This document shows, in pieces, positions 4,634-23,905 of a DNA stretch of 64,000 nucleotides (within the stretch, counting starts at the first letter, position 1; every line of letters starts with the position of its first letter). A model generated the notes under the pieces. It had not been told where the DNA came from. It did not search any database and worked only from the letters and a program-made list of their open reading frames with translations. This stretch comes from Salinisphaeraceae bacterium (GTDB lineage: Bacteria > Pseudomonadota > Gammaproteobacteria > Nevskiales > Salinisphaeraceae). The position numbers and the translations under genes are program-made. Location: positions 1-64,000 of the forward strand of contig NYTH01000022.1 in NCBI GenBank assembly GCA_002683405.1, written 5' to 3'.

Positions 4634-5518
4634 ATGGCGAAAATCGGATTCATCGGTCTGGGCAACATGGGCGGTCCCATGGCATCCAATCTCATCAAGG
4701 CCGGGCACGACGTGACGGTTTTTGATCTGTCCGAAGAACTCATGGATGCCGCCGTGGCGGACGGCGCAAGCAAGGCCGACACGGCCGCGGGCGTGCTGAA
4801 CGGCGCCGAATTTGTCGTCTCGATGCTGCCCAACGGCAACATCGTGAAGGATCTGTATATCCACAAGGATGCCCTGCTTGACCAGATGGACAGCAGCACG
4901 CTGGTCATCGACAGCTCCACCATCGCCTCCGAGGACGCCGTCGAAGTGCACCAGGCCGCCGCCGCCAAGGGCATCGCCATGATCGACGCGCCCGTATCGG
5001 GCGGCGTGGGCGCAGCCAAGGCCGGCAAGCTGGCCTTCATCTGTGGCGGCGTGGCCGGCGATGTCGAAAAGGCCCGGCCCGTGCTGGAACAGATGGGCAA
5101 GGCCGCCTTCCACGCCGGCGAGTCCGGCGCCGGTCAAATCGCCAAGATCTGCAACAACATGCTGCTGGCCGTACACATGATCGGTACCGCCGAAGCGCTG
5201 CAGATGGGCGTGAATGCCGGGCTCGACCCCAAGGTCATGACCGAGATCATGACGGCGTCCTCCGGCCGCAACTGGTCGCTGGACACCTACAATCCCTACC
5301 CGGGCGTTCAGGATGGCGTGCCGGCCGGCAATGACTACCAGGGCGGATTTCTGGTGAAGCTCATGTCGAAGGATCTGGGTCTGGCCGAGGCCGCGGCGGA
5401 CAAGTTTTCGGCGCGCACGCCCATGGGCGATCTGGCCCGCGAGCTTTACCGACAGCATGGTGAAGCCGGCTTTGAGGACCGGGACTTCTCCAGCATCCTG
5501 AAGATGTTGCAGCAGTAG
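4634..5518 (+). CDS. mmsB: 3-hydroxyisobutyrate dehydrogenase
   Basis: NAD-dependent beta-hydroxyacid dehydrogenase of 294 residues that oxidises 3-hydroxyisobutyrate to methylmalonate semialdehyde, the substrate of MmsA. The N-terminus has the dinucleotide-binding loop IGFIGLGNMGGPMASNL. The middle has APVSGGVGAAKAGKL. The catalytic Lys is in GQIAKICNNM. The frame is open from 4568, but that extension lies inside repeat copy 4. The ATG at 4634 follows GAGAGGAGC at 4618-4626 and is the start. A GC-rich hairpin without a T-run (GGCCGCGC 5546-5553 with GCGCGGCC 5567-5574) lies after the stop, in the convergent gap. Confidence 0.94.
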   Translation: MAKIGFIGLGNMGGPMASNLIKAGHDVTVFDLSEELMDAAVADGASKADTAAGVLNGAEFVVSMLPNGNIVKDLYIHKDALLDQMDSSTLVIDSSTIASEDAVEVHQAAAAKGIAMIDAPVSGGVGAAKAGKLAFICGGVAGDVEKARPVLEQMGKAAFHAGESGAGQIAKICNNMLLAVHMIGTAEALQMGVNAGLDPKVMTEIMTASSGRNWSLDTYNPYPGVQDGVPAGNDYQGGFLVKLMSKDLGLAEAAADKFSARTPMGDLARELYRQHGEAGFEDRDFSSILKMLQQ

Positions 5519-5598
5519 CCCCCTATTGAAGCAGGGGCGCCGGAAGGCCGCGCCGGTTCGCTGGCCGCGCGGCCCTGCTCAATGGGCCAACCTGCGCC

Positions 5599-6294
5599 TC
5601 AGGCACTACCCCAGTCCACCGAATCTCGCAGCGACTGGGCCACCGCATCCAGTACGCGTCGCTCCGGGCAGAAAACGGCGATCATGCCCTGCGGCGTGGA
5701 AACCAGCCGACCGCGCTGCCCATCGACATTCACATAGCGGTCGCCAGGCTCGAAGTCGCCGGGCATGACAAAGGCGGTGGCCCGCACGCCGCCGGTTTCC
5801 ACAACGAAATGCGACGAGGTGTGCGTCCCGACATCGCAAATGCGCGCCGCGACCGGCTCACCCGGCGTGTGCGTGAGGGTGAACCCGACCCCCTGATTGG
5901 CAAGTTCCAGCTTGTTGCGCGCCTGCGGCCAGCGCTCGCTTTCGTGGATGGGGTCATGCGTCATGTGCGCGATCATGTCGGTAACCAGGCCCTCATCGTA
6001 CGTATCCATGCGCAGGACGATGGCGGCGACGGCGACGATCATCAGGCAGACCCCCGCCGCCACGGCAATCCAGCGCTGCCGGATACGGCTGCGGGTGCTG
6101 CGCTCGAAGATGACTTCCTGCCCCAGATGATCGGGCACCGGAATACGCATGGCCTGCTCGAGTTTCCGGTTGAACTGCGCCTGCTCGCGGGCGTGCCGGC
6201 GGCAACTTTCGCATTCGTTCAGGTGCTCGCGGGCCTCGCGCGACAGTTGGCCCGGTGTGGTCAGCAATTCGCGGCGGGTGTCCAGGCAGCTCAT
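5599..6294 (-). CDS. Anti-sigma factor, DUF3379-type with zinc finger
   Basis: Membrane-anchored protein of 231 residues. The N-terminus has an HxxxCxxC motif (HLNECESC, residues 24-31), as in zinc-binding anti-sigma domains. One membrane segment follows at about residues 75-96 (AVAAGVCLMIVAVAAIVL). The remaining C-terminal part, about 135 residues, is predicted to be periplasmic. The start overlaps the stop of the ECF sigma gene by ATGA (6291-6294), the usual arrangement of a sigma factor and its regulator. The DUF3379 assignment rests on the combination of zinc finger, single membrane segment and sigma neighbour. The signal it senses is unknown. Confidence 0.85.
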   Translation of the reverse strand: MSCLDTRRELLTTPGQLSREAREHLNECESCRRHAREQAQFNRKLEQAMRIPVPDHLGQEVIFERSTRSRIRQRWIAVAAGVCLMIVAVAAIVLRMDTYDEGLVTDMIAHMTHDPIHESERWPQARNKLELANQGVGFTLTHTPGEPVAARICDVGTHTSSHFVVETGGVRATAFVMPGDFEPGDRYVNVDGQRGRLVSTPQGMIAVFCPERRVLDAVAQSLRDSVDWGSA

Positions 6295-6839
6295 GAGCGG
6301 CCTCCCCGAACCTGGTCACTGGCCAGCCGGTCCGCATCGACGGTCGCGAGCAACTGCTTACGGGCACGGAACAGGCGTGTCATGACGGCGCTTTCGCTGA
6401 TCTGCATGGTCTCGGCAATTTCGGCGACGCTGTATCCCATGATGACCTGCAGCGCGAGCGGCTCGCGATAGTCCTCGGCCAGAGCGTGAATTCGCTGGTG
6501 CAGTTCGCGCAGTTCGGCGGCGTTCCAGTTGGAATCGCCGGCCAGGTCGATCATGTCATCCACTTCCATATCGACCCGATCCAGCCGCTTGCGCTCGTAA
6601 AGCCGGGCATGCTCGCGCCGGCACGTCGTAATCAGCCAGCTCTTGACGGCTTTCTTGTCGCGCAGGTTGTCCATGAAACGCCAGGCGCGCAGGAGCGTCT
6701 CCTGCACCACGTCCTCGGCGATCTGCCGGTCGCGACACAGCCAGTAGGCATAGCGATACACGTCGTCGCTGAACGCGCCCACCATGGCGTCAAAGCGATG
6801 CTGCTTGCTGTTCATGTCGGCGTCCGCGCGCTCGGTCAT
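6291..6839 (-). CDS. ECF-type RNA polymerase sigma factor
   Basis: Sigma-70 family protein of 182 residues with only regions 2 and 4. Region 2 is seen in YWLCRDRQIAEDVVQETLLR, with the promoter-melting part next to NLRDKKAVKSWLITTCRRE. Region 4 is the helix-turn-helix in GYSVAEIAETMQISESAVMT. It is translationally coupled to the anti-sigma gene by a 4-base overlap. A second in-frame ATG at 6815 (MNSKQHRF) is a possible start. selO lies 39 bases upstream on the same strand, so the three genes may be transcribed together. Confidence 0.92.
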   Translation of the reverse strand: MTERADADMNSKQHRFDAMVGAFSDDVYRYAYWLCRDRQIAEDVVQETLLRAWRFMDNLRDKKAVKSWLITTCRREHARLYERKRLDRVDMEVDDMIDLAGDSNWNAAELRELHQRIHALAEDYREPLALQVIMGYSVAEIAETMQISESAVMTRLFRARKQLLATVDADRLASDQVRGGRS

Positions 6840-6878
6840 TGGCTTGTTCCTGTAGACCGGCCTGAGCGCGATCCGCTT

Positions 6879-8414
6879 TCAGCTTGAGCAGCTGACGCTG
6901 ATGTGGCGCGCCCAGTCCGGCGGCAACCGGGCAAGCTCGGCGTGCTCGGGCTGTTCGTCGAAGGGTCGTTCGAGCACCCGGCCCAGCCGCTGCATGACGC
7001 TAAAGTCGCCCGCCTGAGCAGCTTCGATGGCCTGCTGGGCAAGATAGTTCCGCAGCACGTAGCGCGGATTGGCGGCGCGCATGCGGCCCTGTCGCTCCTG
7101 CTCCGACAAGCCGTCCTGCTCGAGCCGGGCGCGCCATCGCGCCAGCCAGCGCGCGGCGGCCTCGCGGTCGCTGAATTCGTCGTGAAACGGCGCGTTGCCG
7201 TGATCGGCCTGGCCCGGCGTGTCACTCAGACTCCGGAAGCTGCGGGTGAAATCCGCCTTGTCGCGCGCCATCAGCGCAAGCAGGTCGTCCAGCAACTCGC
7301 CATCCTGCTCTTGCCGACTGCTCAGCCCGAGCTTGGCGCGAAACTGCGTCATGTAGGCCGTAACGAATCGCGGCCGGTAGGCCTCGAGCAGGGACTGGCC
7401 AATCTCCACGGCCGGGTCCGGTTCGTCAGCCAGCAGCGGCAGAATGGCCTGCACGAAACGGCTCAGGTTCCACAGACCGACGTCGGGCTGCTGGTCGTAG
7501 GCGTAGCGGCCGATGTGGTCGGTGTGGTTGCAGATCCAGCCGGGCTCGTAGGCGTCCATGAAGCCATAGGGGCCGTAGTCGATGGTCAGCCCAAGCGCGG
7601 ACATGTTGTCGGTGTTCATCACGCCGTGACAAAAGCCGACAGCCTGCCAGCGGGCGATCAGATCGGCGGTGCGTTCGATCACCTCGCCCACCCAGGCGGC
7701 ATAGCGGTCCTGCGGGTCGCTGACCGACGCTGCCGCCGGGAAATGGTCCTCGATGAGACGGTCGGCCAGCGGTTTCAGGTCGGCAAACTGCTTGCGATAG
7801 AACAGCACTTCGAAACTGCCGAAGCGGATATGGCTGGGCGCCACCCGGGCCAGCACCGCGGCCGTTTCCACGGTCTCGCGATAAACCGGGTCGGGCGAAG
7901 CGCAGAGACTCAAGGCACGGGTGGTCGGAATGCCCAGCGCGTGCAGCGCCTCGCTGGCAAGGTATTCGCGGATGGTGGAACGCAAAACGGCGCGGCCGTC
8001 CGCCGTGCGTGAATAGGGCGTCAGGCCCGCACCCTTGAGCTGGATGTCCCGGAACCGGCCGGACCGGTCACGAATCTGACCCAGCGAGATGGCGCGCCCG
8101 TCGCCCAGTTGGGGCACCCACACGCCGAACTGATGGCCGGCGTATAGCTGCGCAAAGGGCGTGGCGCCCTCGGGCACCCGGCCGCCCGCCAGTATTTCGG
8201 CGGTGTCCGTTCGACTTTCCGCGGCCGGGTCGATTCCCAGATCGGCTGCCAGCGTGGAGTTGAACACCTCCAGCGTCGGAGAGCCCAGCGGCGTAGGCGC
8301 CGTTTCACGGCCGTAGGTCTGGCCGTAGCGAGCCAGCGGCTGGTGCCAGGTCAGCGCGTCCAGCGTGCTCGTGAGCCCCTGGGGGTCATCGCGGTCGGGT
8401 TGAGTGCTTGCCAT
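6879..8414 (-). CDS. selO: Protein adenylyltransferase SelO (YdiU/UPF0061 family)
   Basis: Pseudokinase-fold enzyme of 511 residues that transfers AMP to proteins; in characterised homologues the targets are Ser, Thr or Tyr residues and the role is redox stress. Conserved blocks are FAQLYAGHQFGVWVPQLGDG (residues 88-107), QLKGAGLTPYSRTADGR (125-141), CHGVMNTDNMSALG and DYGPYGFMDAY. The extreme C-terminus is SCSS before TGA. The Cys sits where animal SELENOO has selenocysteine (U in USS), so this is the Cys form. Length is slightly above the roughly 480 residues of E. coli YdiU. Confidence 0.95.
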   Translation of the reverse strand: MASTQPDRDDPQGLTSTLDALTWHQPLARYGQTYGRETAPTPLGSPTLEVFNSTLAADLGIDPAAESRTDTAEILAGGRVPEGATPFAQLYAGHQFGVWVPQLGDGRAISLGQIRDRSGRFRDIQLKGAGLTPYSRTADGRAVLRSTIREYLASEALHALGIPTTRALSLCASPDPVYRETVETAAVLARVAPSHIRFGSFEVLFYRKQFADLKPLADRLIEDHFPAAASVSDPQDRYAAWVGEVIERTADLIARWQAVGFCHGVMNTDNMSALGLTIDYGPYGFMDAYEPGWICNHTDHIGRYAYDQQPDVGLWNLSRFVQAILPLLADEPDPAVEIGQSLLEAYRPRFVTAYMTQFRAKLGLSSRQEQDGELLDDLLALMARDKADFTRSFRSLSDTPGQADHGNAPFHDEFSDREAAARWLARWRARLEQDGLSEQERQGRMRAANPRYVLRNYLAQQAIEAAQAGDFSVMQRLGRVLERPFDEQPEHAELARLPPDWARHISVSCSS

Positions 8415-9486: not shown

Positions 9487-11088
<1,602 letters not shown>

Positions 11089-11200: not shown

Positions 11201-12160
11201 ATGACCCGCTCCCGGCTTCTGCATCGCCTGCTTGTCCCGGCCCTGCTGGTGCTCGTCTGCACGGTCGCCCCGGCGGGCGCATCGACCGAGGCATCGGCCG
11301 TCAACCAGATCACGCTCTCGACCGACCAGCTGGCGGAGGCCAGCGGTCTGGCCGCTTCGCAGCGTGCGCCGGGAGTTCTTTGGGCGCATAACGATGGCGG
11401 CGATGCGCCCACGCTCTACGCCTTGGCGACGGACGGCCGGCTACTCGCTCGCCTGACCCTGGAAGCCGCCACCCATCAGGACTGGGAAGACATGGCCAGC
11501 TTTCGCGACCAGGGCGAGCCGTGGCTGGTGGTGGCCGACGTCGGCGACAACAGCGCCACACGCGAAACCCTGACGCTGTACTTCCTGCGCGAACCCGAGC
11601 TGCCCGCCGACGCGTCATTCCCGGCCGATCTCGCGCAACGCGTTGAGCGCACCCTGCGATTCCGGCTGGAAGGCGGGCCGGCCGATATCGAAAGTCTCGC
11701 GGTCGACCCGGCGCGCGACGCGATCATCCTGGTCGGCAAGCGACAGACGCCGCCCGCGGTATACCAGCTGCCGCTGCACCCGCCGGATACGGGCCGCGTC
11801 CTCACCGCCGAGCGCATCGGTCAGATCCCCCGGCTCCCGCCGCCCGACCTGAGCGACATCAGGCACAACTTCACGCTGGCGCCATTCCTGCGCCAGCCTA
11901 CTGCCCTGGACCATGACGCCAGCACCGGTCGCTTCCTGGTAGCAGGCTATGCCGACGCCCATCTGTTCGCCTGCCCGCCGTCGTTGTCGCTGAAAGCGTG
12001 CTTCGCGGCCACGCCCGACACCCTGCAGCTCCCCATGCTGCCGCAGACCGAGGGCGCCGCCTTCTGTCAGTCAGGCCGCGCGCTGTGTTTCATCAGCGAA
12101 AAGCTGCCGACACTGCTAATGCAATTGCCTTCTCCCGTCTCCGACACGACCGCGCCGTAG
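11201..12160 (+). CDS. Secreted protein of unknown function, possible beta-propeller
   Basis: Protein of 319 residues with a signal peptide at the N-terminus (LLHRLLVPALLVLVCTVAPAGA). The mature part has repeated blade-like segments: ASGLAASQRAPGVLWAHNDG, then LYALATDGRLLARLTL, then WLVVADVGDNSATRETLTLY, then DIESLAVDPARDAIILVGKR, then FLVAGYADAHLFACP. The VxxVGDN and ESLAVDP patterns are like those of six-bladed esterase/phytase-like propellers, but no catalytic set is evident. Three C-terminal Cys and one more in the ACF segment may form disulfides. No strong ribosome binding site is seen before 11201. Confidence 0.65.
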   Translation: MTRSRLLHRLLVPALLVLVCTVAPAGASTEASAVNQITLSTDQLAEASGLAASQRAPGVLWAHNDGGDAPTLYALATDGRLLARLTLEAATHQDWEDMASFRDQGEPWLVVADVGDNSATRETLTLYFLREPELPADASFPADLAQRVERTLRFRLEGGPADIESLAVDPARDAIILVGKRQTPPAVYQLPLHPPDTGRVLTAERIGQIPRLPPPDLSDIRHNFTLAPFLRQPTALDHDASTGRFLVAGYADAHLFACPPSLSLKACFAATPDTLQLPMLPQTEGAAFCQSGRALCFISEKLPTLLMQLPSPVSDTTAP

Positions 12161-12201
12161 TGCCTGCGGCCTAATTCGCATATCAGTGCAGCCTGCCACG
12201 G

Positions 12202-13986
12202 CTAGAACCAGCGCGCCTGCATGGCCAGCGCGCTGTCGTCGTGCTCGATGAGCAGCGCCGCCAGCGGCTCGATGGCCGGCAACTCGCGCCGGAAGAAGAA
12301 TTGGCAGGCCTGCCGCTTGCCGGCCACGAAGTCCGCTTCAGTCGTTTGATCAAGTCGCTGCGCCGCCTGCACCTGCCGCAGCCACATCCAGGCAATAACC
12401 ACCCGGCCAAGCAGGTCGAGATACAGACTGGCGTTGGCCAGATAGCGAGCCGGCTCGTCGGCGGCCTCGCGCAGCGCCTCGGTCACCTGCTCCACGGTAT
12501 CCACGGCGGCTCCCAGCGCACGGGCGTGGTCCTCGATGCGGGTATCGGCGGCGGCCCGGTCGGCCGTTCCGCGTATTTCCCGCAGCAACACCTGCAGCGC
12601 ACGGCCCTGGTTCATCGTGACCTTGCGCCCCAGCAGGTCGATCGCCTGGATACCGTTGGTACCCTCATGAATGGGATTCAGGCGGTTGTCGCGATACAGC
12701 CGCTCCAGCGGATACTCTCGGGTGTAGCCATAGCCGCCCAGCACCTGGATGCCCAGGTCGTTCGCCTTCAGGCCATATTCCGAAGGCCAGGCCTTGGCGA
12801 TGGGCGTCAGGATGTCGAGCAAGTCCCGAAGCCGCCGGCGATCATCAACGTCGGGGCCGTGCTCGAGGCGATCCACCAACGTGGCGCAGTACAGGCACAG
12901 CGACAGGGCGCCCTCCACATAAGCCTTCTGCGTGAGCAGCATGCGACGTACATCGGCATGCTCGATGATGGGCACCGGCCTGGATTCGGGGTCGGCCTGA
13001 CCGGGCGGACGGCCCTGTGGCCGCTCGCGCGCATAGGCCAGCGAATGCAGATAGCCGGAGTAGCCGAGCACCGAGGCGCCCATGCCCACAGCAATCCGGG
13101 CCTCGTTCATCATGTGAAACATGCCCGCGAGCCCCCGGCCGGGCTCGCCCACCAGAAAGCCTTCGCAGGCGCCGTTGTCGCCGAAATTCAGGACCGTGTT
13201 GACGGTCCCGCGGTAGCCCATCTTGTGGTTCAGGCCGGCCAGGCGGATGTCGTTCCCCGGCCCGAGACTGCCGTCCTCGTTCACCCGAACCTTCGGCACG
13301 ACGAACAGGGAAATACCGCGTGTTCCGGCGGACGCGCCGTCGATCCTGGCCAGGACCATGTGCACGATATTCTCGGATAGTTCGTGCTCGCCGGCCGATA
13401 TCCACATCTTGTTGCCCACGATGCGGTAGCTGCCGTCGTCCTGCGGCGCGGCCCGCGTGCGGATGTCACCGAGTGATGAGCCCGCCTGCGGCTCGGACAG
13501 GCACATCGTGCCGAAAAATCGGCCTTCGATCATCGGCACCATATAGCGCTGCTTCTGCGCCTCCGACCCCACCACGCGCAGCAGATTCGCGGCGGCCGTG
13601 GTCAGGAAGGGGTAGCCGGCAGTGCCGATGTTGGCGGCGGTAAACAGCGAGGCAATGGCCTGTGACACCGTGTACGGCATCTGCAGGCCGCCGTACTCTG
13701 CCGGGAAGGCGGTGCCCATGAAGCCGCTGTCGATATAGGCCGCCAGCGCCTCGGCCACCTCGGGGATGATGTGCACGCGCTCACCGTCGAAGGTTGGCTC
13801 GTTGGCGTCGAGCCGCGCCGCATGCCCGGCGAACCCGTCCTCCGCCAGCCGGTAGGCGGCGTCAATGACGGCCTCGAAGGTTGCCCGATCGTGCTCGCCG
13901 AAAGCCGACCAGTCGCAGAAGGATTCGACCTCCAGCAGGTCGTACAGCAGGAAGTTCAGGTCGCGCGGATTGATCAGTAGACTCAT
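12202..13986 (-). CDS. Acyl-CoA dehydrogenase, long DmdC-like type
   Basis: Protein of 594 residues, about 200 longer than ordinary acyl-CoA dehydrogenases. This is the size of the group containing 3-methylmercaptopropionyl-CoA dehydrogenase (DmdC). The core signatures are MCLSEPQAGSSLGDIRTRA, LNHKMGYRGTVNTVLNFG, and LGGYGYTREYPLERLYRDNR followed by IHEGTNGIQAIDLLGRK, where the Glu of HEGT is the expected base. The extra C-terminal helical domain runs over the last 150 residues. It stands alone on the minus strand, about 1.1 kb from the acyl-CoA ligase. Substrate cannot be decided: a medium- or long-chain acyl-CoA or the DMSP-derived thioester are both possible. Confidence 0.88.
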   Translation of the reverse strand: MSLLINPRDLNFLLYDLLEVESFCDWSAFGEHDRATFEAVIDAAYRLAEDGFAGHAARLDANEPTFDGERVHIIPEVAEALAAYIDSGFMGTAFPAEYGGLQMPYTVSQAIASLFTAANIGTAGYPFLTTAAANLLRVVGSEAQKQRYMVPMIEGRFFGTMCLSEPQAGSSLGDIRTRAAPQDDGSYRIVGNKMWISAGEHELSENIVHMVLARIDGASAGTRGISLFVVPKVRVNEDGSLGPGNDIRLAGLNHKMGYRGTVNTVLNFGDNGACEGFLVGEPGRGLAGMFHMMNEARIAVGMGASVLGYSGYLHSLAYARERPQGRPPGQADPESRPVPIIEHADVRRMLLTQKAYVEGALSLCLYCATLVDRLEHGPDVDDRRRLRDLLDILTPIAKAWPSEYGLKANDLGIQVLGGYGYTREYPLERLYRDNRLNPIHEGTNGIQAIDLLGRKVTMNQGRALQVLLREIRGTADRAAADTRIEDHARALGAAVDTVEQVTEALREAADEPARYLANASLYLDLLGRVVIAWMWLRQVQAAQRLDQTTEADFVAGKRQACQFFFRRELPAIEPLAALLIEHDDSALAMQARWF

Positions 13987-18070: not shown

Positions 18071-18985
18071 TTAGCTGAACGCGCGCTCGAGCATGGCGGG
18101 CCCGCAATCCTGAAAGTAGTCCCGGAACCATTGCGTGGCCCGACCCGTGGACTCGCGCCGCCATGCCACGGCGAACTGATCGGCCGGGACGGCGCTGACG
18201 GCCGTGACCCGCGCCAACCGGCCCGCGCGAATCTCCAGTTCGGCCAGCGGCCGGGGTAGCAGGCCGAAGCCCAGTCCCGCCCGCAGCGCTTCGAGTTTGT
18301 CGCGCAGATCCATCAGCCGCGAGACCGGCACGTTCTCGGCCAGGATATGCTGCTCGGGCGGCAGGCCGCGCGACGTGTCGGCTGTGGCCAGAAACCGGAA
18401 GTTGCCGAGCTCCGTCCCGGTAAACGGGGTTTCCGCGTGCTCGAGGGGGTGCCCGGCGGCGACCACGTAATCCATGTCGAGATGGCCCAGCGCCACGTTC
18501 TCGCAATCCCCGGCCACGTGCAGGGTTTCCGCCCGGCCGATTGCAAGATCGGCCCGGCGCCAGACCAGCGCATCCCAGGGTCCGGTTTCCGCTTCGCGGA
18601 TGACGTGCACGCGCGTGGCCTGCTCCATCTCATCGAAGGCACGCAAGGCCGGCACCAGCATGTTGAAGGGCAGCTGGTGATCCAGCGCCAGCGTGATTTC
18701 AGCCTCCCAGCCATCCGCGGCCATGCGCACACGGGACTCCAGATCCGCCACCGCGCGCAGAATCTTGCGGCCTTCCTTGAGCAGATCCACCCCGGCTGCC
18801 GTGAGCTCCACGCTGCGCCCGACGCGCTGGAACAGGGCCACACCGAGCTCGTTCTCGAGCTTCTTGATCGTATGGCTGATCGCCGAAGGCACGCGGTGCA
18901 GCTTGGCCGCTGCGGCCGCGAAACTGCCCGTCTCGGCAATGGCCGTCATGACCTGGAGCGAATCAATGGTCAACCGGCTGTTCAT
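18071..18985 (-). CDS. LysR-family transcriptional regulator
   Basis: Protein of 304 residues with the LysR winged helix at residues 1-65: LQVMTAIAETGSFAAAAAKL, then VPSAISHTIKKLENELGVALF, then RSVELTAAGVDLL. The effector-binding domain covers about residues 90-300. It is transcribed away from the large repeat-protein gene, with a 164-base AT-rich gap between the two starts. LysR regulators often control the divergent gene, so the repeat protein is the first candidate target. The effector is unknown. Confidence 0.93.
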   Translation of the reverse strand: MNSRLTIDSLQVMTAIAETGSFAAAAAKLHRVPSAISHTIKKLENELGVALFQRVGRSVELTAAGVDLLKEGRKILRAVADLESRVRMAADGWEAEITLALDHQLPFNMLVPALRAFDEMEQATRVHVIREAETGPWDALVWRRADLAIGRAETLHVAGDCENVALGHLDMDYVVAAGHPLEHAETPFTGTELGNFRFLATADTSRGLPPEQHILAENVPVSRLMDLRDKLEALRAGLGFGLLPRPLAELEIRAGRLARVTAVSAVPADQFAVAWRRESTGRATQWFRDYFQDCGPAMLERAFS

Positions 18986-19149: not shown

Positions 19150-21624
19150 GTGAAGATCAAACACGCTATTGCGGGAGGCCTGCTTGCGGCCACCCTTCCC
19201 GCCGCACAGGCCGGCCTGATCGGTACCGGCGTACTGTCGGGCAGCCAGAGCGGTGAAGGCGGCCTGCTCGGGCTGGACGTCATCAACGCGGACAACTTTC
19301 TCGGGCTGCAGCTCAATAATCAGCCGCTACTGGGACAGGCTGCCCGACCCGGGCTGATCGGCCTCATCAACCTCTCCAGCCTGCCGCTACCCGCTGACCG
19401 CGGCTTGCCGGCGCTGGAACTGCCGCCACTCGCCGGCCTGGCGCTGCTCAACGCCGGCAATTCGGCCAACGGGCAATTAATCGGGCTGGCCGCGCTCAGC
19501 GGCGCCAACAGCGGCAATGGCGAGCTGCTTGGCGTGGCTGTCGCCAACGAGGGCCAGTCGGGCAACGGCGGGTTGATCGGCCTGTCGCTGCTGTCAGGCA
19601 ACGACAGCGGCAACAGCGGTTTCGCCGCTGCGAGTCTGCTGTCGGGCAACAACAGCGGCAACATCGTGAGCGGCAACGGGCTGCTGAATTTCGCGGACGG
19701 ATTTGACGGCACGGGTGGCCTCACTGGCCTGTTCGGCCAGACGGACGCCCTGAATGGCCTGAACCTGACGGACCTGGCTGCCACGCCGATTGCAGGGCTG
19801 CTCAGTGTTCGGGTCGTCAATCGGCCGGCGAGCCGCACCGGCCTGGTGGACATCGGGCTGCTCAATACCGATTTCCTGGCTTCTCTTGGACTGAACGGCG
19901 CTCCCGTCATTCAGCTGCCGCCGGGCAACCCGGCGCTGCACGATCTGCTGGCCGCGCTGCGGCTGGCGCTGCGTGACGGCGCGGGCTCACTGACCGACGT
20001 GACCGACGGCAACGGCGACGCACTGGGCGATGCTGCCGGGGCCAGTCCGCTCGGCGAGCTGCCGGTGGGCGACCTGGCGGAAGCGGGTCTGGCGTCCGAC
20101 GGCGACAGCGGCCTGCGCCTGATCGCGCTGCGTTTGATTGATGCCGCCGGCACGGGCAACGGCGACAACGTGGCCGCTTCGATTCTGGGCGGTGGCAACA
20201 ACGCCAATGCCGACGTTGCCGGGGCTTCAGTGCTGGGCGGCGACAGTTCGGCCAATGGCGGCACGCTCGGTGTGAGTCTGCTGGACGGTAACAACAGCGG
20301 CAATGGCGGTCTGATCGGCCTGGCCGTGTTGTCCGGCGACAACAGCGGCAGCGGCGGCCTGCTCGGCGCCAGCGTCCTGTCGGGCGAAAACACCGGCAAC
20401 GGTGGCCTGCTTGGTCTGGCGCTGCTGGGCGGAGACGGCTCGGGCAACACCGCGGGCGACGGGCTGGGCGCGGTTCAGGTCCTGAGCGGTGCCAACAGCG
20501 GCAACGGCGGTCTGATACCGGTATCCATCGGCGGCGGCGACAATTCCGGCAATCCGGGTACCGGCGGCCTCGATGGCCTGGCCGGCCTGCTGCTGCTCAT
20601 CCCCGCCGACGGCGGTACGGCACCCGCGCTGGACGGTCAGCTGGTCGGGCTGGGCCTGCTCAACGGCGGACTTGACCGCGAAACGGGCAGCCTGGTGGAC
20701 GCCGGCATCATCGAAAACAATCATCTGCTCACCCTCGATCTGGCGGGCCAGCAGGGGCTGCAGATCGATCTGCTCGGCCCGGAACTCACCGCACTGGCTG
20801 CCGGCCTGCGTGATGCGCTGGCGCAGACCGGTCTAGGTGAGCTGCCGATCGTGCTGCCGATTCCGGACGCAGCCGATCCGGTGGCGGCCGTCAATGATCC
20901 GGTCAGCGGCATTACGGACGTCGCCCTGCTTTCCACCGCCCAGGGCGCGTCCGGCGATGTGGCCGGCGCGAGCGTCCTCAGCGGCAGTGGCGACGGCGCG
21001 GCCAGCTCGACCGCCGGCAGCGCTTCAAGCGGCCCCGGCGATACCTCGCTCGCAGGAACAGGAATAGACGGTAGCGGCGGCGGTGATTCCGCCTCGAGCC
21101 GGGTACCCGTCAACACCCTGCCCGACAACAGCGAGACCGGCGATACGCTGGCCGGTGGCGAGTCGCAGGGGCCGAACACGGTCGGCGACGAGTCCGCAGC
21201 AGGCAATGGACAAGCCGAGGGCGGCGACAACGTCGTAGCCGATCGCGATGCCAACGATCCGTCTCTGCCTGGCGACGAGACTATCGCAGGCGCGGCAGAC
21301 AGCAGCGAACCTGCCGACCAGGGTAGCGGCGCACTGGACAGCAATTCCGACCTGCTCGCGATCGCGCCGCTGCCGGGGCTGGAGACCGCGGGTGGGTCGT
21401 CGGGCACCAGCGCCGGGGCAAATAACGCCAGCGACATCGACGGCGCGGGCGCTGATGGCCGCGGCGAGTCGCTGCGTCCCGCCGGACAGGAGGACGGCCC
21501 CGCCGGCGCTGAGCGTCAGTGCGTTTCCGACGTGGCCGAAGACGAGATCGAGGCCGGAGACTCCGACGCGCGTCAATGCAACAACGAGGAAGTCGACTCG
21601 CTGGCCTTCAATCGCTTCGAGTAA
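19150..21624 (+). CDS. Large exported Gly/Asn/Ser repeat protein with duplicated module
   Basis: Protein of 824 residues starting with GTG behind GAGG. Residues 1-21 are a signal peptide (HAIAGGLLAATLPAAQA). Two blocks (about 104-180 and 334-467) are made of near-perfect 16-residue units of the type NSGNGGLIGLAVLSGD. Each is followed by a related module of about 50 residues: TGLVDIGLLNTDFLASLGLNG near 232-280 and GSLVDAGIIENNHLLTLDLAG near 513-563. So the whole arrangement is duplicated. Residues 594-817 are low-complexity Gly/Ser/Asp/Asn-rich and acidic, with two Cys near the end. No membrane anchor or sorting motif is seen. The regular units suggest a beta-solenoid. Family not recognised. 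Confidence 0.8.
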   Translation: MKIKHAIAGGLLAATLPAAQAGLIGTGVLSGSQSGEGGLLGLDVINADNFLGLQLNNQPLLGQAARPGLIGLINLSSLPLPADRGLPALELPPLAGLALLNAGNSANGQLIGLAALSGANSGNGELLGVAVANEGQSGNGGLIGLSLLSGNDSGNSGFAAASLLSGNNSGNIVSGNGLLNFADGFDGTGGLTGLFGQTDALNGLNLTDLAATPIAGLLSVRVVNRPASRTGLVDIGLLNTDFLASLGLNGAPVIQLPPGNPALHDLLAALRLALRDGAGSLTDVTDGNGDALGDAAGASPLGELPVGDLAEAGLASDGDSGLRLIALRLIDAAGTGNGDNVAASILGGGNNANADVAGASVLGGDSSANGGTLGVSLLDGNNSGNGGLIGLAVLSGDNSGSGGLLGASVLSGENTGNGGLLGLALLGGDGSGNTAGDGLGAVQVLSGANSGNGGLIPVSIGGGDNSGNPGTGGLDGLAGLLLLIPADGGTAPALDGQLVGLGLLNGGLDRETGSLVDAGIIENNHLLTLDLAGQQGLQIDLLGPELTALAAGLRDALAQTGLGELPIVLPIPDAADPVAAVNDPVSGITDVALLSTAQGASGDVAGASVLSGSGDGAASSTAGSASSGPGDTSLAGTGIDGSGGGDSASSRVPVNTLPDNSETGDTLAGGESQGPNTVGDESAAGNGQAEGGDNVVADRDANDPSLPGDETIAGAADSSEPADQGSGALDSNSDLLAIAPLPGLETAGGSSGTSAGANNASDIDGAGADGRGESLRPAGQEDGPAGAERQCVSDVAEDEIEAGDSDARQCNNEEVDSLAFNRFE

Positions 21625-21649: not shown

Positions 21650-21674
21650 GGGCCGGCACTGCCGGCCCTTTTTT
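21650..21674 (+). terminator. Intrinsic terminator
   Basis: GGGCCGGC (21650-21657), loop ACT, GCCGGCCC (21661-21668), then six T. It lies 25 bases after the repeat-protein stop and shields the convergent gene at 21697. Confidence 0.9.
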
Positions 21675-21696: not shown

Positions 21697-22131
21697 CTAT
21701 TTCCAGCCGATCGTGTCGTATCCCTTGTCGCGCAGGCAGCGATCCACGAAATTGCGGTAGACCGGATGCGGTCGGTCGGGCTGAAACAGGCCGCTGAAGA
21801 AACCGTAGGTGGCGCCCTGGGCCGCCCCTACCGCCGCGCCGCGGCCGGTATTGCCCAGCACGGCGCCGACCGCCGCGCCGCTGGCGCCGCCCACGACACC
21901 GCCGCGAACGGTGCGGCCCGCCAGATCGCCACCATCGTCATAGTCCAGCCCCTGCGATTCGGCCAGCGCCTCGCATTGCTGCAGGTCGCGCTGCTGCTGC
22001 GCCGGCGTTCGGGTGCTGGTGGTGGCGTTCGGATAGAAGTGCGGCTTCTGATGGGCACAGCCGGCCAGCCCCAGCAGCAGTGCCGCGGCCGGCACCGCGC
22101 TCAGATGCGTCCACAGCCGCTGCTCAGCCAT
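21697..22131 (-). CDS. Glycine-zipper lipoprotein
   Basis: Protein of 144 residues. The ATG at 22131 begins a lipoprotein signal peptide with lipobox LAGC (AVPAAALLLGLAGC). The middle holds a glycine-zipper pair: GGVVGGASGAAVGAVLG and GRGAAVGAAQGATYG, a pattern of outer-membrane-associated lipoproteins of the SlyB/PcP type. Cys in LQQCEAL and DRCLRDKGYD may form a disulfide. The start overlaps the stop of the upstream tandem GST-N gene by 8 bases, so the two are probably co-translated. Confidence 0.8.
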   Translation of the reverse strand: MAEQRLWTHLSAVPAAALLLGLAGCAHQKPHFYPNATTSTRTPAQQQRDLQQCEALAESQGLDYDDGGDLAGRTVRGGVVGGASGAAVGAVLGNTGRGAAVGAAQGATYGFFSGLFQPDRPHPVYRNFVDRCLRDKGYDTIGWK

Positions 22132-22873
22132 AGGTCTGGCGCAGGTACGCCATGATTTCGCTGGATTCATACATCTCCACGCCCATGTTGGGATCGATCA
22201 GGAAAGGCACCTGCAGGCGACCCGTCCGGGCGTGCATGCCCTGGCGGTTGCGGCCGCTGACCGGTTCTTCGGGAAAGAATTTGCGCCGCACCCAGGGTGG
22301 GCCCATGTCCTGCATCTTCGCCTTACCCATGTTTCGCAACAGGTAGGGGATCTCCAGCTCGCAAAGCAGCTCCCGCACCGGCCGCGAGTAGGGGCTGGAC
22401 TCGAAGCTGTAGAGCTCCAGAGGCTGCGCCGGCGCGGCGCCGGGATGTGCCGTGCGCATGCCCCTGCTGCCGCGTGCGGCCGAGGCCAGAAACGAGCCGA
22501 GCTGAGCCGGCACGCCGCCCAGCAGGGGCGGCCGCGCGGGCCGCGGGCCGTAGGTGGCGTGGAGGTAGCGAATGATGTCGGCCGACTCGTACAGGCTCTC
22601 GCCCGTGTTGGGATCCATCAGATAGGGGAACTGGAGCTTGCCACCCAGACAGGCCAGCCGCGGCCGGAACCGCTGCCCGCCCTTCGGACAGGGATAGATG
22701 AGCACATCCAGATTCAGTTCGGTGAGCGTTTCGCGCACCAGCCGGCAGAACGGACAGCCCTCGAATTCGAACAGCTCAAGCGGTTTGGCGGGCAGTTGTG
22801 CCGGCTCGCCGGCCATCGTGCCGCGCCAGCCTCTGGCCGTGCTCGCGGCCAGTGAAGACAGCAGGTTGAGCAT
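22124..22873 (-). CDS. Tandem glutathione S-transferase N-terminal (thioredoxin-fold) protein
   Basis: Protein of 249 residues built from two GST-N/glutaredoxin-like domains, about residues 32-109 and 151-249. Both have the pattern LEL(F/Y)xFExxPx, then (F/V)P(Y/F)L(M/I)DPN, then (L/M)YES(A/S)(D/E)I with RYL or AYL. The first has a CPFC centre at residues 40-43. In the second, both Cys are replaced (SPYS at 160-163). The cis-Pro before the strand is kept in both domains. There is no GST C-terminal helical domain. The role could be thiol redox or binding of a partner; no substrate can be named. Confidence 0.82.
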   Translation of the reverse strand: MLNLLSSLAASTARGWRGTMAGEPAQLPAKPLELFEFEGCPFCRLVRETLTELNLDVLIYPCPKGGQRFRPRLACLGGKLQFPYLMDPNTGESLYESADIIRYLHATYGPRPARPPLLGGVPAQLGSFLASAARGSRGMRTAHPGAAPAQPLELYSFESSPYSRPVRELLCELEIPYLLRNMGKAKMQDMGPPWVRRKFFPEEPVSGRNRQGMHARTGRLQVPFLIDPNMGVEMYESSEIMAYLRQTYG

Positions 22874-22951
22874 GAGCAGGAACCGGATGGGTGGGTTTGC
22901 CGCATTGTACCGCGAACACGTTGAGCGCCCGGCTTGCTATATTCGCCGCCC

Positions 22952-23905
22952 ATGAAAACGAACCATGCACTTCGAGTCGGAATCTGCGCGCTGTATCTGG
23001 TCGGCAGCAGCGCGCTGGCAGCCATGACCGTCGAGATCGGACCAACGAACGTGGGTGCGGCGCGGACCGCTGATGCCCGGCAGGCACCGGGCTGGTCACT
23101 GCGGTCCGCCACGGGCCAGACGGTCGATTTCCCGCAGGACGCCGACGGCCAGCCTACCGTGCTGCTGTTCTGGCCCTCCTGGTGCCCGTACAGCCGGGCG
23201 TTGCAGCCCTACGTGCAGTCGATCTGGGAAGACTATCGCGACGCGGGCGTGAACGTCTGGACCATCAATATCAAGGAGCGTGGCGATCCTGTCCAAACCA
23301 TGGAGGAGCGCGGACTGAGCTTTCCGCTCCTGCTTGAAGGCGATGGGCTCATGTCCGCTTACGGTATCGTGCGAACGCCCTGGCTGGTCGTCATCGATGG
23401 GGCGAATCGTATTGTGTACACCCGGCCTGCCCGGCCGCCCTCGCCCGTTCATGTAGCCAAACAGGTCCGCGCCACGCTGAACGAGCTGCTGGGCGATGAC
23501 GCCGTGGCTCTGCCGACCGAATATCCCAAGCCCTACGATATTCACCTGCGCAGCCGCGAGACCCGGTCCACGCCGCTGACCGGCGACCCGGCGCCGGGCG
23601 AGGACTGGAACGGCTGGGCCCGCCGGTATCTGGATGCCTTCGAGGCTGGTCCGCCGCCGGCGGATATTCCGCCCATCCGCTTTGGCGAGGACGCGCCCGG
23701 CCTGCTGGAACAATCCCGGCAGCGCTGGCGGGCCCGGTTCGGCGCCGAAACCGTGGAACAGTATCGTCAGTTCCGGGCGTACCGCCAGGGACGGCGCTGG
23801 GTCACCGCTTCGGTGGAAAGCGCCGGCCCGCAGGGCCAGGGGCTGGTACTCGTGTTCGATGCCGACAGCGGCCAGGTGCTGCACATCGCACACGCAGACC
23901 GTTGA
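22952..23905 (+). CDS. TlpA-like periplasmic thioredoxin-fold protein with CPYS centre
   Basis: Protein of 317 residues. The ATG at 22952 begins a signal peptide (HALRVGICALYLVGSSALAA). A TlpA/AhpC-like fold follows: VLLFWPSWCPYS at residues 70-81, the strand NVWTINIKERGD and the cis-Pro segment RTPWLVVIDG. The second Cys of the CxxC centre is Ser (C78, S81), so normal disulfide exchange within the motif is not possible. The last 140 residues form an extra domain with a Trp-rich start (DWNGWARRYLDAF) and no known family. The stop is 1 base before the GTG start of queA. Confidence 0.78.
   Translation: MKTNHALRVGICALYLVGSSALAAMTVEIGPTNVGAARTADARQAPGWSLRSATGQTVDFPQDADGQPTVLLFWPSWCPYSRALQPYVQSIWEDYRDAGVNVWTINIKERGDPVQTMEERGLSFPLLLEGDGLMSAYGIVRTPWLVVIDGANRIVYTRPARPPSPVHVAKQVRATLNELLGDDAVALPTEYPKPYDIHLRSRETRSTPLTGDPAPGEDWNGWARRYLDAFEAGPPPADIPPIRFGEDAPGLLEQSRQRWRARFGAETVEQYRQFRAYRQGRRWVTASVESAGPQGQGLVLVFDADSGQVLHIAHADR

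Follow-up and report, generated by a model that had tools for sequence, protein, structure and literature searches.

How an exported repeat protein that matches no described family reaches its destination, and what it might do there, is the question raised by a gene in the window analyzed here, a 64,000-nucleotide stretch of DNA from a Salinisphaeraceae bacterium. The preliminary description had read an open frame at this locus as an exported protein of unrecognized family, built from two blocks of 16-residue repeats, each followed by a matching module, and an acidic tail, and the frame was present in exactly that form (Table 1). By direct reading, the N terminus (MKIKHAIAGGLLAATLPAAQA, followed by G) looks like a Sec signal peptide, and the relatives described below also begin with signal-like N termini. 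Comparison of the window protein with Pfam, NCBIfam, and PDB sequences returned no meaningful match, and the sole PDB row, a xylanase domain at an E value of 0.68, was regarded as chance. Twelve family members compared with Pfam gave nothing significant except one C-terminal OmpA domain, and open-access literature searches found no description of the family. Judged from its sequence, the protein is a member of an undescribed family of exported passengers, in keeping with the earlier failure to recognize it.

Relatives were found with a profile built from an alignment of relatives; a scan of genome contigs with the single protein gave none. A profile made from the relatives alone scored the window protein at 133.9 bits and reported no match to its reversed sequence or to 1000 shuffles, so that the match is not due to common composition alone and a compositional artifact was ruled out. 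Passenger homologues of 450 to 740 residues were present in 12 of 85 genomes of the order, plus a few other gammaproteobacteria. Named carriers are Abyssibacter, Stenotrophobium, Panacagrimonas, Hydrocarboniphaga, and Stagnimonas, with further examples in other Nevskiaceae or Salinisphaerales bacteria and in one Spongiibacteraceae genome. The family is rare across the class (2 of 369 genomes). The source genome has a single copy, and neither this passenger nor its transporter partner was found in 16 other genomes of the Salinisphaeraceae.

The architecture claimed earlier was borne out. The Gly/Asn/Ser-rich 16-residue units, of type IGLAVLSGDNSGSGGL, gave lag-16 residue identities of 0.37 in block A (residues 90 to 200) and 0.42 in block B (residues 325 to 470); each block had its highest identity at this lag, and the 99th percentile of shuffles was 0.26. 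The two modules (residues 226 to 300 versus 506 to 580) aligned with a BLOSUM62 score of 64, compared with 31 ± 6 for shuffles, only 1 of 2000 of which scored as high; module 1 is also similar to the N-terminal region (score 54, reached by 4 of 2000 shuffles). The tail is acidic, with 42 D+E against 7 K+R. The preliminary description had further proposed a beta-solenoid with one unit per coil, to be checked by structure prediction. In an AlphaFold2 model computed from an alignment of 12 rows, strands recur every 16 residues at residues 95 to 162 and 341 to 460, and a regular solenoid is predicted at about residues 96 to 165 (pLDDT, 63 to 82) and 341 to 470 (pLDDT, about 80 to 90), which supports one unit per coil in both repeat blocks. 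This support is confined to the repeat blocks; the modules and tail have low confidence, mostly with pLDDT below 50.

Table 1. Coordinates of the passenger gene, its parts and neighbors, and partner-family genes at other loci
Feature	Position	Strand	Basis or remark
Divergent LysR-type regulator gene	18071..18985	-	PF00126 + PF03466
Solenoid passenger gene	19150..21624	+	Open frame, GTG start, 824 aa
Signal peptide, residues 1-21	19150..19212	+	Cut after AQA; direct reading; hydrophobic core; signal-like N termini in relatives too
Block A, 16-residue units, residues 95-174	19432..19671	+	Lag-16 identity, unit listing, AlphaFold2 strands every 16 residues
Module 1, residues 226-285	19825..20004	+	Alignment with module 2
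Block B, 16-residue units, residues 341-470	20170..20559	+	Lag-16 identity, 48-base DNA tandem repeat (20291-20411), AlphaFold2 solenoid
Module 2, residues 511-570	20680..20859	+	Alignment with module 1
Acidic Gly/Ser/Asp tail, residues 600-824	20947..21621	+	Low complexity
Cysteine pair C791-C810, proposed periplasmic disulfide anchor	21520..21579	+	Sole cysteines of the protein, in the tail
Terminator-like stem-loop then TTTTTT	21650..21668	+	26 bases past the stop codon
Exported thioredoxin-like protein (CPYS), candidate accessory	22934..23905	+	Divergent, 1.3 kb downstream of the passenger gene
Partner-family genes beside small exported proteins	L101 5679-7265, L104 6065-7549, L107 2334-3824		
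Partner-family genes beside small exported proteins	L114 2844-4373 and 5519-7120, L118 2101-3639, L120 2161-3732		

A route across the envelope is suggested by the gene order of the relatives. In all 11 whose contig continues (L027 and L033 to L042), the gene that follows on the same strand, after a gap of 63 to 445 nt, encodes a ShlB/FhaC-like transporter of 501 to 556 aa, and a passenger of a two-partner-secretion-like system is therefore the best reading of the protein. These adjacent partners align well with one another and match ShlB/FhaC/HecB (PF03865), as did 16 of 16 partners in a wider sample. An AlphaFold2 model of the Stenotrophobium partner (pLDDT 80, pTM 0.77) contains two POTRA-like units and about 16 strands; compared with solved structures, it matched CdiB (6wim, E value of 2.5e-20) and FhaC (4ql0, E value of 1.8e-17), with BamA after these. 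The predicted fold of the partner is that of a two-partner-secretion transporter. A partner-family gene occurs in 12 of 12 passenger genomes, compared with 43 of 85 genomes of the order overall (naive P value of 1e-4, uncorrected for kinship); in one of them (G029), the adjacent position is lost at a contig end. The preliminary description had seen the best candidate for an undescribed system here: the family is indeed undescribed, while the relatives tie the protein to a ShlB/FhaC-type transporter and thus to a variant of two-partner secretion.

Other genes recur around these operons. A small open reading frame of about 70 to 90 residues separates passenger from partner in L027 (about 9620 to 9900), L033, L034, and L038. 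LuxR-type regulator genes flank the L027 operon (6964-8397 on the minus strand and 12064-13047 on the plus strand), and related genes are found in L033, L034, and L038 and, by reading, in L133 and L141.

The source genome itself carries one partner-family gene (contig C14, 842 to 2536), and the passenger stands alone on contig C22. Because the two lie on different contigs, we infer their pairing in this organism from the relatives. A partner tree grouped the C14 gene with the partners of repeat passengers weakly (53/78) and was indecisive for this gene. A weak partner-family match on contig C39 was read as a BamA that carries an ordinary signal peptide. No other passenger lies next to the C14 partner. 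The C14 gene is preceded by the end of a putative photolyase gene, and downstream is a convergent open reading frame for an exported protein of 156 aa (C14 2837-3307, minus strand; locus L068 of the source genome, G000) that is not like the repeat passengers and could be an alternative cargo.

Two features depart from classical two-partner secretion. The first is in the passengers, none of which (0 of 12) matched the TPS domain (PF05860) at an E value of 1 or better; a search for PF05860 across the source genome also found none, but the control of that search was silent as well. The second is in the partners. By hydropathy alone, 47 of 47, the C14 copy included, have no recognizable signal peptide, a 12-residue hydropathy mean below 1.5 being taken as no hydrophobic N-terminal segment; three passenger signals score 1.7 to 2.5. 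All 47 instead open with a conserved M-x3-LPPP-like motif (MxxxLPPPxxP). Misplaced start codons were rejected as the cause, with no hydrophobic segment seen in the upstream in-frame stretches, and several partners have a stop one to nine codons ahead of the start. Open-access literature searches found no description of signal-less TpsB proteins. The absence of signal peptides is hard to square with an outer membrane pore and makes the location of the partners uncertain. Their C termini are mostly F, Y, W, or L, like those of outer membrane barrels.

The partner family also adjoins unrelated small exported proteins, among them Ser/Asp-rich, Arg/Gln/Asp-repeat, and EF-hand types (Table 1). It therefore does not have to be specific to the solenoid passenger, and the secretion family extends beyond what the window protein reveals. 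EF-hand-like exported neighbors were seen in L120, L124, and L125, and at L114 the pair of partner and exported neighbor is in tandem duplicate. In two genomes of another family, the partner adjoins a longer Gly/Asp-rich protein whose units are, by reading, somewhat similar. Compared with FhaC and CdiB, the partner family shares PF03865 and a predicted fold with two POTRA-like domains and about 16 strands and differs in its start, in the missing signal peptide, and in having several unrelated small cargoes. It is a tentative proposal that these genes form a separate two-partner branch, with pores without a classical signal peptide and unrelated TPS-less cargoes, small or solenoid, of which the window protein would be one retained by a Cys loop.

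A means of retention is suggested by the end of the passenger, whose only two cysteines, C791 and C810, went unmentioned in the preliminary description. A C-terminal Cys pair, mostly 13 to 18 residues apart, is present in 13 of 13 passengers compared; the L042 passenger has several cysteines before its OmpA domain. In HMW1 and HxuA, a C-terminal Cys pair forms a loop that does not leave the periplasm and keeps the adhesin attached to its transporter (PMC5422565; PMC8151025), and by analogy the C791-C810 loop may anchor the solenoid on the cell. The peptidoglycan-binding OmpA domain fused to the L042 passenger (5386 to 7500) and an OmpA-like gene between passenger and partner at L141 (3345 to 4475) agree with a passenger C terminus that stays periplasmic. 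An OmpA-domain protein is also encoded next to the passenger or partner at L038 (9984 to 11255). Together, the OmpA-domain proteins of L042, L141, and L038 suggest a peptidoglycan-linked third component. Reportedly, Yoshimoto in 2016 described a trimeric autotransporter adhesin whose periplasmic partner, TpgA, binds peptidoglycan and has an OmpA-type domain. Some relatives resemble that arrangement in having an OmpA-type gene or fusion beside the passenger; none lies beside the window gene, and the secretion class is not the same.

In four relatives, thioredoxin-like CxxC genes follow directly after the passenger operon. The thioredoxin-like protein encoded downstream of the window gene might help to form the passenger disulfide; in the sister-family loci examined, this gene has no counterpart between the conserved GST and QueA genes. 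Also downstream, a glycine-zipper lipoprotein gene (21697-22170, minus strand) overlaps a gene for a protein with two GST-N/glutaredoxin domains (22124-22873, minus strand), and this pair next to QueA is kept in most sister-family loci examined. The position of the stem-loop behind the passenger gene is suggestive only of a terminator, the scan having found 2 such sites against 2.0 expected by chance. The divergent LysR-type gene could, from its position, regulate the passenger.

Taken as a whole, the window protein is probably (at roughly 60%) the passenger of a type Vb-like two-partner system, in which a ShlB/FhaC-type pore, a surface solenoid, and a Cys anchor serve an adhesin or matrix fiber. 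Sec would deliver the passenger to the periplasm by its signal peptide, and the ShlB/FhaC-type outer membrane pore (C14), matched to it through the gene order of the relatives, would translocate the repeat region. The 16-residue units would fold outside as the predicted beta-solenoid and may pull the chain through, and the Cys pair would close a small periplasmic loop that, like those of HMW1 and HxuA, keeps the solenoid attached to the cell. Given its fold and the absence of any catalytic domain, the displayed solenoid would act as a surface adhesin or matrix fiber, in line with the surface adhesin or matrix protein proposed earlier. The closest known systems, HMW1/HMW1B and HxuA/HxuB, likewise combine an exported beta-solenoid (predicted here), an Omp85/TpsB-fold pore (adjacent in our relatives), and a tail that carries a C-terminal Cys pair and is expected to remain periplasmic. 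The system described here differs from them in having no TPS domain, a signal-less partner, 16-residue Gly/Asn/Ser-rich units, and no adjacency in the source genome.

The peculiarities of the partner also bear on another, unlikely explanation, that the protein has a structural role, anchored in the periplasm or spanning the envelope, and never crosses the outer membrane and that the ShlB-like gene does another job. The OmpA fusion of L042, the doubtful outer membrane location of signal-less partners, and the unlinked partner in the source genome would all suit it. However, the strict passenger-partner order in 11 of 11 relatives and the predicted likeness of the partner to the translocation pores CdiB and FhaC argue against it, and a long solenoid with an export signal and a C-terminal Cys pair suits a surface TpsA-like protein. 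Many two-partner passengers are released, and the protein could instead be fully secreted and unanchored, a matrix or biofilm protein assembling outside via its solenoid edges and acidic tail. The low-complexity tail and regular solenoid would fit, but retention is favored by the OmpA fusion and by the Cys pair in every passenger compared, which make this rather improbable.

Structural comparison of block B raised a trimeric, YadA-like beta-roll adhesin head with an unusual export route, which is very improbable. In VIA-align, the best neighbors of block B were the BoaA and YadA heads (Z scores of 11.1 and 10.7), and the left-handed beta-roll heads of YadA, BoaA, and UspA1 share its short Gly-rich layers. 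The root mean square deviation of these rows was poor (8 to 9 Å), and they were not taken as proof; a Foldseek search with the model of the entire passenger returned no match. YadA-type heads have 14 to 15 residues per layer (PMC9543794), compared with 16 in the window protein, and Pfam found no YadA head, stalk, or anchor domain in 12 members, which have a separate transporter. The likeness may be only a common arrangement. A surface layer binding ice or, as raised in the preliminary description, minerals or ions drew on nothing beyond the regular solenoid and acidic tail and, with no TxT array, no RTX nonapeptides, and no family match, is extremely unlikely.

If the two-partner reading and the separate branch are correct, type Vb secretion would gain a branch, carried by about half of the order's sampled genomes, in which a Pro-rich pore start replaces the signal peptide and the cargoes are without a TPS domain. 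How such a pore finds its way to the outer membrane and recognizes its cargo would then become testable, and an orphan family of exported repeat proteins in environmental gammaproteobacteria would be given a function.
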